Positions 10,130-11,663 of a stretch of DNA of 39,861 bases are shown piece by piece (positions within the stretch are counted from its first letter, which is position 1; the number at the start of each line of letters is the position of its first letter). The translations under genes and the position numbers were made by a program. Source of the stretch: an uncultured Bacteroidota bacterium (GTDB taxonomy: Bacteria; Bacteroidota; Bacteroidia; Bacteroidales; UBA12077); contig CAJXLE010000006.1 of NCBI GenBank assembly GCA_913055895.1, forward strand, positions 1 through 39,861, given 5' to 3'. The notes under the pieces were generated by a model. That model had not been told where the DNA came from, searched no databases, and saw nothing but the letters and a program-made list of their open reading frames with translations.

Positions 10130-10429
10130 TTACGATGGGTAGTGGTTTTCAGAATTCCAGGAAGCACGGTCTTTCTTTTGTCGTTGTTCATCAACCAGGT
10201 TGCCCAGGACAAACCCCATTACGATGCCATAAAATGCTGAGCCGTACCAGCTGGATGTGATCGGGCAGGTGCCGGTGGTGCATCCGATGAAATACCAGTA
10301 GGCATAGCCCCCTAGGATTCCGGGAATGAGCATGATCAGGGCGAACTTGTTTTTTCGTATCCATGCCTTATGCCGGGCCCAATCTCTTTGTCCGGCTGCC
10401 TTCCTTTGATTTCTGATCCATTTTTTCAT
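10130..10429 (-). CDS. DUF6132 family small membrane protein
   Basis: This 99-residue protein has a basic N-terminal third (MKKWIRNQRKAAGQRDWARH) and two hydrophobic spans, about 34-52 and 66-82. Between them is YWYFIGCTTGTCPITSSWYG, the two-Cys motif IGCxTGxCPITS typical of DUF6132. The paired cysteines suggest a redox or sulfur/metal role, but no activity is known to me. The frame is open up to 10477, but -7 boxes at 10457-10472 place the transcription start near 10450, so the start must be the ATG at 10441 or 10429. The latter begins with the natural MKKW and is chosen. Confidence 0.8.
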   Translation of the reverse strand: MKKWIRNQRKAAGQRDWARHKAWIRKNKFALIMLIPGILGGYAYWYFIGCTTGTCPITSSWYGSAFYGIVMGFVLGNLVDEQRQKKDRASWNSENHYPS

Positions 10430-10456
10430 ATCGTGTAACATCTTCACCAGTCTTTG

Positions 10457-10472
10457 CAAAGATACAAATATA
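10457..10472 (-). promoter_or_regulatory. Overlapping -7 boxes upstream of the DUF6132 gene
   Basis: On the minus strand TATATTTG (10472-10465) is followed directly by TATCTTTG (10464-10457). Both fit TAnnTTTG exactly. No clear -33 element is visible. They lie 28-43 bases before the chosen start codon. Confidence 0.45.
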
Positions 10473-10477
10473 CACAA

Positions 10478-10831
10478 ATTTATATACTTTTATATATGAA
10501 CAAATATGGCAAGTGTTTGATATCTGTGTACAGGTAATTTCAGGAAAGTTTGAGGGTCTGATTGTGAAGGATTTTGTGCAGCTATTTATCAGGTATTCAG
10601 GCGATTTTTGTTCAGGCGTCTTTACATTCAGGCGTCTTTACATCCAGGTGAATTTGTTTCCAGATCTAAGTGATCACATGATCACGGATGTTTCAGCTGG
10701 TTGTTCGCAGGCTTATCTATATTTGGAAAGATCTTGGGCACGTTGTGTTCATCTTCACAAGATTGTGATTTATTCAATGTTTTGGAATGTGTGACTTGTC
10801 CCGATGTGGTGTGGCCTCACCCTTGAAAAAG
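10478..10831. other. Intergenic stretch with a tandem repeat and a palindrome
   Basis: No convincing gene is seen; a 93-codon plus-strand frame at 10513-10794 spans the tandem repeat and shows no family features. The stretch holds a 16-bp direct repeat (10611-10642) and a palindromic tgatcacatgatca near 10673-10686. Confidence 0.45.
10611..10642. repeat. Two exact tandem copies of a 16-bp unit
   Basis: The unit ttcaggcgtctttaca occurs twice in direct succession. Degenerate partial copies flank it: ttcaggcgatttttg before and tccaggtg after. It is a short slippage-prone repeat without spacers. Confidence 0.8.
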
Positions 10832-11179
10832 CTACTGACTGGTTTGGATGATCATCAGGTGGATCTCCTCTTTCAGCCGTGGGAGGTCGTTGGCGAGGAT
10901 GTCCCACAGCAACTCGTTGGATACATGAGCGTCGCCGGTTCTTAGGCGCCGGCTGGTATCGGTGATTTTTTCCACCTGGGAGAGTTTCAAATCGGGGATG
11001 TGTCTGGCGATACGGGACAGGAAAAAACCTACTATCTCAACATTTCTCTCCACCGCCCTTCGCTTGATAAGGTGTTTGGAAAAATGCTGTAAATTTTTTT
11101 GATGGTCACTAAAATAGCTTTCAATCTCCTGTATGGCCTTGAGTATCTCATACAACCATGCCCTTGTCCTGTCGTCCAT
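10832..11179 (-). CDS. HepT-like HEPN protein lacking the HxY tyrosine
   Basis: This 115-residue helical protein has the HepT/DUF86 layout: MDDRTRAWLYEILKAIQEIE, then RRAVERNVEIVGFFLSRIAR, then LLWDILANDLPRLKEEI. HepT toxins are HEPN RNases with an Rx4-6HxY motif, and the tyrosine is adenylylated by the MntA antitoxin. Here the matching segment is RTGDAHVS: Arg, four residues, His, but Ser where Tyr is expected. The only tyrosines are residues 10 and 22. The loop between His and the conserved Trp is also shorter than usual. The gene overlaps the end of the MNT-like gene upstream by 32 bases. A start seven codons earlier (11200) is possible; MDDRT fits usual HepT starts better. Confidence 0.78.
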   Translation of the reverse strand: MDDRTRAWLYEILKAIQEIESYFSDHQKNLQHFSKHLIKRRAVERNVEIVGFFLSRIARHIPDLKLSQVEKITDTSRRLRTGDAHVSNELLWDILANDLPRLKEEIHLMIIQTSQ

Positions 11180-11468
11180 ATACAGATATTTTGGTAGCAT
11201 TGATGATTTTTTCCATGAAAGGATTTTTGAGGGCCTGCTCTTCGATAAGTTCCACCTGGCACCCCATCATTTCGCTGAGTGCATCTTTCAGGGAATAGTA
11301 GTTGTCTCCGTATTCCTCTGGCGGAAGGGGGTAAAACCGCACCATAAAGCCATGCGGACATGCCTGGGCCTCATCCAGTTCGCTGGCGTCAAAAGCAAAA
11401 AGTTCATCCACACGGTGGTTTTTGCAGAGTTTTTTGATGCTTTTTAGGTATATTTCGATGGCTTTCAT
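11148..11468 (-). CDS. MntA-like nucleotidyltransferase-fold protein with degenerate active site
   Basis: This 106-residue protein resembles the minimal nucleotidyltransferase (MNT) partner of HepT. Conserved features are the first helix, VDELFAF, the strand FMVRFYPLPPEEYGDNYYSL, the mid-segment VELIEEQALKNPF and the terminal ISVYG. Catalytically active members have GSx10DxD. Aligning without gaps, GS becomes Phe-Asp in LFAFDASELDEAQACPHGF, and DxD becomes Pro-His-Gly exactly ten residues later. All metal and nucleotide ligands of the motif are therefore missing. MntA normally silences HepT by adding AMP to its tyrosine, and that tyrosine is also absent in the partner. It is probably a binding-only partner. 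The gene is followed by the HepT-like gene with overlap, the classic pair order. Confidence 0.75.
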   Translation of the reverse strand: MKAIEIYLKSIKKLCKNHRVDELFAFDASELDEAQACPHGFMVRFYPLPPEEYGDNYYSLKDALSEMMGCQVELIEEQALKNPFMEKIINATKISVYGRQDKGMVV

Positions 11469-11663
11469 GTCAGCAAGTTATGAAATTATGTTACTTGAAT
11501 CAAGATTTTTCATCAGGTTGCACAGCAGGGTCCCGGGCAGCTGTTGATAAACCTTTTCGGCTGTTGTCTGTTATGCAATGATGATCCTGTATACTGCCTG
11601 CCAGAAACTCTAAAACGGTATACAGATCAGGTTGTTTGTTGAACAGTTAAAATTGTGGCACAT

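Follow-up and report, generated by a model that had tools for sequence, protein, structure and literature searches.

A HEPN-MNT gene pair without the catalytic residues of either partner is kept by purifying selection in three Bacteroidales species

Two overlapping genes on the 39,861-nucleotide stretch of Bacteroidales DNA analysed here (the window) encode homologs of the MntA antitoxin and the HepT toxin that have both lost their diagnostic catalytic residues. The joint loss has a single origin, it is found at the same locus in two congeners, the ancestral gene order is retained, and both genes are under purifying selection. HEPN/MNT has been described as the most abundant predicted prokaryotic toxin-antitoxin family, and in Shewanella oneidensis the antitoxin MntA uses its GSx10DxD motif to place three AMPs on Tyr104 of HepT (PMC7641770). 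In the pair described here both sides of this reaction are missing. We think it fairly probable that the pair has been domesticated as a catalytically inert HEPN-MNT complex acting by binding only. Below, G000 denotes the window's own genome and G001, G002 and G003 denote its congeners, of which G002 and G003 carry the same pair.

The MNT-like (MntA-like) gene is an open reading frame of 106 codons at 11148..11468 on the minus strand, followed on the same strand by the HepT-like (HEPN, PF01934/DUF86) gene at 10832..11179 (115 residues from M8). The open frame of the latter reaches back to 11200 (10832-11200, 122 residues), and M8 at 11179 is the more likely start because the orthologs and the intact pairs of a sister genus begin there, with the same 32-bp overlap of the two genes (11148..11179, minus strand). 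The HepT-like protein matches PF01934 with 34.1 bits against a Pfam cut-off of 23.5 (E 2.4e-8). No Pfam model matched the MNT-like protein: PF01909 is matched by 31 of the 34 proteins in the MNT alignment, namely its intact relatives, and the MNT-like protein is not among them, while PADLOC model PDC-S09 matches it at 6e-14. Pfam, the multiple alignment and the predicted fold together rule out a wrong family assignment, and a frameshift or sequencing artefact is ruled out because three separate assemblies all show the frames open. At 10600-10660, in the spacer that follows the pair, lies a short direct repeat, TTCAGGCGTCTTTACAT, present nearly twice, head to tail.

Residues were assigned from multiple alignments that include 31 intact relatives of the MNT-like and 21 of the HepT-like protein, and these alignments bear out the claim of the initial annotation that both partners lack their diagnostic catalytic residues. 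In the MNT-like protein, the Gly-Ser position of MntA (11385..11390, minus strand) is occupied by Asp27-Ala28, with Asp-Ala in G003 and Asp-Thr in G002, and the Asp-x-Asp position (11349..11357, minus strand) by Pro38-His39-Gly40, with Gln-Cys-Gly in G003 and Glu-Lys-Gly in G002; the whole Ser-Asp-x-Asp of MntA reads Cys37-Pro38-His39-Gly40. The third metal ligand, Asp71 in S. oneidensis MntA, corresponds to Glu73 (11250..11252, minus strand) and to Glu and Met in the orthologs. Six catalytic or adjacent positions are 100% conserved among the intact relatives, and in the MNT-like protein every one of them is replaced; C15, V20, F26, N82 and Y97, conserved to the same degree, are kept. The Pro-His-Gly assignment had been made correctly at the outset. 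The earlier reading of Phe-Asp at the Gly-Ser position, by contrast, came from an ungapped alignment and is misplaced; the alignment is not gapless, as had been supposed, since all three motif-less MNT proteins share a one-residue deletion between the two motif halves.

The HepT-like protein is altered too, and not as narrowly around its active site as its partner. At the R-x4-H-x-Y position (10931..10954, minus strand) it has Ser83, Thr88 and Asp90, the orthologs having Ser/Lys/Asp (G003) and Ser/Gln/Arg (G002), and where helix 2 invariably ends in Glu-Ala in the family (11021..11026, minus strand) it has Phe59-Phe60. The family residues R83, H88, Y90, D91, E59 and A60 are thus lost, and L16, E51, R52, E55, I56, W99 and L109 are kept. 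No tyrosine occurs after Y29, which agrees with the earlier remark that the C-terminal half contains none; the His-x-Ser once read at the Rx4HxY position reflects a shifted alignment, in which HVS (92-94) properly aligns with a Ser-Val-Ser downstream of the motif.

Three of the retained residues, E51, R52 and E55, lie on helix 2 and do not vary among the HepT proteins, whether intact or motif-less. They lend some weight to the main alternative, in which the HepT-like protein would have remained an RNase toxin, working through a helix-2 metal site like the one described for Legionella HEPN, and the MNT-like protein would neutralize it by binding alone, much like a type II antitoxin. In a Legionella HEPN protein, R98A and H103A leave RNase activity and toxicity in place, and it is Q44A and E47A that abolish both (PMC11586414); a genome-scale screen, as reported in PMC3710099, also picked up HEPN proteins lacking the motif as toxins. 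Against this, the Glu-Ala pair (59-60) that adjoins the helix-2 site in sequence has been lost as well, the Legionella residues Q44 and E47 can be likened to this family only at the level of the helix, and binding without adenylylation neutralizes S. oneidensis HepT only poorly (PMC7641770). We therefore regard a surviving RNase toxin as unlikely and continue to favour an inert complex that acts by binding.

The same pair was found in two congeners among 59 related genomes. The proteins of G003 are 65% (MNT) and 74% (HepT) identical to those of the window, and the proteins of G002 are 52% and 64% identical; the GTDB scan records of the two orthologs are Bacteroidales bacterium isolate GSL_GSL3510_15 and an uncultured Bacteroidetes MAG. 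The database search for shared loss that had been suggested thus returned two congeners with the same losses at the same locus, and with losses common to congeners under purifying selection, private decay of one copy is ruled out. What is conserved jointly in the orthologs is the loss of the motifs in both partners; the Pro-His-Gly state itself varies, to Gln-Cys-Gly and Glu-Lys-Gly. Three such pairs are known, at least two of them from metagenome-assembled genomes.

Among distinct full-length MNT proteins, GSx10DxD is kept in 82 of 85, and Rx4HxY is kept in 60 of 63 HepT proteins; the exceptions in both cases are these three pairs and no others. With all 82 other MNT and all 60 other HepT proteins retaining their motifs, a chance loss of the motifs is ruled out. 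Searches across the class and the phylum yielded twelve further loci, all of them intact. Further motif-less relatives were found neither in 59 relatives and in genomes of the order (393), the class (395) and the phylum (395) nor in GTDB r220 contigs, viral contigs and phages, among the matches read and at the thresholds used, and a wide gap separates the three motif-less proteins (E of about 1e-60) from the next match (about 1e-25). Independent double losses may exist elsewhere, since the motif survey sets aside many weaker order-wide matches, together with two distant plasmid matches at 32-36% identity. HepT genes without the motif in other relatives of the order are frameshifted or truncated.

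In each gene tree the motif-less genes form one clade with a support of 100/100, on long stems of 1.53 and 1.79 changes per column and with shorter branches inside; the trees are built on about 100 columns each, and the deeper placement is accordingly unsure. The three species share D27, C37, G40 and the deletion in the MNT-like protein, and S83 and F60 in the HepT-like protein, all of them derived, and at least part of each loss therefore predates the divergence of these species. All three carry the pair at the same locus: a tricorn-like S41 peptidase flanks it on one side (plus a Na+/H+ exchanger in two), and the other flank holds a thioredoxin, a TonB-dependent receptor and a small conserved ORF. 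Between the pair and the thioredoxin, at 10130-10477 on the minus strand, lies a gene for a small DUF6132 (PF19628) protein, which is matched in G003 and was not found in G002. In the fourth congener (G001, L136 on G001:C23, 9561-9774) the tricorn-like peptidase is followed directly by the thioredoxin, with no pair between them, and the sister genus has its intact pairs in different contexts. Since it occupies the same locus in three species and is absent from G001, the pair is a chromosomal insertion kept by vertical descent, or else one that was lost from G001.

We examined selection on the two genes with a codon-model likelihood ratio using our own codon model and the three sequences. Neutrality (omega = 1) was rejected with 2dlnL values of 80.3 for MNT and 117.9 for HepT; omega = 0.3 was rejected too, and the rejections hold with the overlap left out. 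The omega estimates of about 0.01-0.10 are rough, being bounded rather than well measured, because synonymous sites are saturated. The three sequences differ at 17-29% of first and second codon positions versus 47-65% of third positions. In a neutral simulation at the divergence seen, about four stop codons per gene are expected, and the open frame survives in about 2% (MNT) and about 1% (HepT) of cases. Both proteins have thus been under strong purifying selection since the motif-less clade arose, which answers the dN/dS comparison across orthologs that had been proposed.

Conservation also extends to the sequence immediately ahead of the MNT-like start. A 37-bp block (11469..11505, minus strand), found by comparison of the three species, is identical in all three at 26 of 37 positions versus 2-6 of 37 in each of the next three 37-bp blocks. 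Within it lie the inverted repeat AAGT-N14-ACTT and a promoter-like TTG...TAACTTG; a core of 31 bp is present a single time in the genome of each of the three species and is absent from the other two genomes. We suggest that the block may have a promoter-like role; the neighbouring peptidase gene is preceded by a block conserved to the same degree (28 of 37), as expected of a promoter region. Scans for sigma-70 promoters and terminators returned chance numbers only.

These data bear most directly on the possibility that the pair is a relic in slow decay, with an inactive toxin, relaxed selection and frames that happen to remain open. All known catalytic residues are gone, several of the positions they occupied vary freely among the three species (PHG/QCG/EKG in the MNT-like protein; T/K/Q and D/D/R in the HepT-like protein), and the frameshifted or truncated HepT genes elsewhere in the order attest that decay is common in this family. 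However, purifying selection is strong outside the overlap too, no stop or frameshift has appeared in three species despite saturated synonymous divergence, and the upstream block is conserved. Decay is thereby largely refuted, and we hold it to be very improbable. The earlier view that the double loss reflects co-evolution rather than decay holds insofar as the joint loss is kept by selection, which the congeners, the single-origin clades and the rejection of neutrality establish; its further implication of reciprocal adaptation does not follow, because no intermediate orders the two losses.

The other HEPN proteins of these genomes invite a different use for an inert pair. No other PF01934 protein was found in G000 or G003, which rules out a resident intact HepT/MntA pair as a partner in trans there, and the motif-less pair is not plainly a helper of such a pair, since two of the three genomes hold no other PF01934 protein. 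In G002 the only other PF01934 locus, L028 (G002:C45), is an ordinary MNT/HepT pair in which MNT is intact and the HepT frame is broken, with the motif in another frame; this is ordinary decay, and it has taken place alongside the motif-less pair, which G002 keeps. The pair-less G001, on the other hand, has five PF01934 proteins above the cut-off, located elsewhere in the genome. One could accordingly imagine an anti-addiction role, in which the inert HEPN protein enters mixed dimers with intact HepT toxins that arrive on mobile elements, spoiling the active site that the two subunits share and allowing the host to lose or ignore such modules, all the more as the HEPN cleft with its RNase site arises by dimerization (PMC11586414). 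But this distribution concerns four genomes only, many pair-less relatives also have no HepT, and at no more than about 44% identity between the inert HEPN and intact HepT proteins the formation of mixed dimers is uncertain. We consider this role improbable, and a binding complex of the two inert partners themselves still accounts best for the pair.

Finally, the MNT-like protein could have become a different enzyme or a metal-binding protein, as all three species share D27, C37, G40 and C70 in the former active-site region, where the intact family has G, S, D and R, but three sequences cannot separate new function from shared ancestry and we give this reading little credence.

Both partners are predicted to have retained their folds. 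AlphaFold, with input alignments dominated by intact relatives, returned a pLDDT of 91 for the HepT-like and 86 for the MNT-like protein. The best PDB matches of the HepT-like model are the type VII HEPN toxins 7ae6, 5yep and 6m6u (Z 12.3-12.6), and those of the MNT-like model are the MntA chains 7aer and 7bxo (E about 8e-5). Helical bundles easily reach a high Z, and with Foldseek by itself no match of the helical HEPN model fell below an E of 0.001; the HEPN match carries weight mainly because HEPN toxins top the list and the sequence family agrees. PDB sequence searches with the three MNT proteins, or with the window's HepT-like protein alone, found no real relative, and searches with wider alignments found MntA and HepT chains.

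How might such a pair work? A former type VII (HepT/MntA) module would have entered the site in the common ancestor of the three Bacteroidales congeners, or have been lost in the fourth. The catalytic residues of both partners would then have been lost, at least partly before the species split, and the pair kept since as working genes. The likely order begins with loss of the RNase, which would have made adenylylation unnecessary and left the antitoxin's active site free to go. We infer that the HEPN-like protein still forms a helical dimer and still binds the MNT-like protein; indeed, the D39E,D41E variant of S. oneidensis MntA still forms a hetero-octamer with HepT (PMC7641770), so a pair without either reaction can still form a complex. 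Purifying selection on both partners therefore points to a binding function of the complex, which would act stoichiometrically. RNA held in the HEPN cleft would be the likeliest ligand, a part of the proposal in which we have less confidence than in the inert complex itself, and the MNT-like partner may have a structural or regulatory part in the complex. For HEPN proteins lacking the motif, RNA binding without cleavage has been proposed (PMC3710099). More speculatively, and with considerable doubt, the two enzymes may have turned into pseudoenzymes together, leaving the pair as a stable chromosomal regulator, possibly one that binds RNA, or leaving an inert HEPN that disables incoming intact HepT through mixed dimers.

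Inactive HEPN partners are already known or predicted; what sets this pair apart is that the RNase site and the modifying site are both lost and both proteins are kept by selection in several species. We found no description of a HEPN-MNT pair with both partners inactivated and kept by selection in open papers, most subscription papers lying outside our scope. Such a pair is a natural separation of binding from catalysis in HEPN-MNT, and it offers a test of what the HEPN-MNT complex does without either reaction, and of toxin-antitoxin domestication.

Compared with the type VII, Class I HepT/MntA system (S. oneidensis SO_3166/SO_3165; PMC7641770), whose toxin arrests growth as an RNase and is adenylylated by its antitoxin, the pair has the same families, the MNT-first order, the adjacency and the folds, as predicted, and it nests with intact relatives in both trees. 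Of the features that define Class I, a PF01934 protein next to an MNT homolog encoded upstream is present; GSx10DxD (G27->D, S28->A, D38->P, D40->G), an Rx4HxY motif in the PF01934/PF08780 HEPN (R->S83, H->T88, Y->D90) and the acceptor tyrosine are absent. The MNT-like protein also has no counterpart of the long fourth C-terminal helix of S. oneidensis MntA, and the NCBIfam equivalogs NF047752 (MntA antitoxin) and NF047751 (HepT toxin) score 12.5 and 13.8 bits against cut-offs of 60. The Legionella pneumophila HEPN-MNT pair (PMC11586414) likewise has a short MNT (about 108 residues) without the long fourth helix, and important residues in HEPN helix 2; unlike the present pair, its MNT keeps GSx10DxD and AMPylates the toxin, and its HEPN keeps Rx4HxY and the acceptor tyrosine. 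Class II HEPN/MNT pairs (PF05168; PMC7641770) resemble ours in a HEPN partner without the RNase motif, but belong to another HEPN family and keep both the MNT GSx10DxD and a conserved HEPN tyrosine, so that modification is possible; with a PF01934 HEPN and a lost MNT motif, our pair falls outside this class. A second HEPN/MNT pair in G000, L156 (G000:C243, 29-777), lies on another contig and is class-II-like, with a different HEPN type and an intact GSx10DxD.

The description of a non-catalytic HEPN protein, a HEPN fold without the RNase motif, does apply, in a DUF86/PF08780 group in which the motif is conserved in 83% (PMC3710099). Inactive HEPN proteins of the MtlR type share that fold without the RNase residues and are proposed RNA binders, yet they are described with mannitol genes and no MNT (PMC3710099), whereas here an equally inactivated MNT adjoins the HEPN. 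The PADLOC models of PDC-S09, a candidate defence family, match the MNT-like protein and all 33 homologs, the members in our alignment being otherwise intact nucleotidyltransferases. The pair descends from HepT/MntA, and we withhold the type VII label because it lacks both defining motifs and falls short of both NCBIfam equivalog cut-offs; it is best called a doubly inactivated HEPN-MNT pair.
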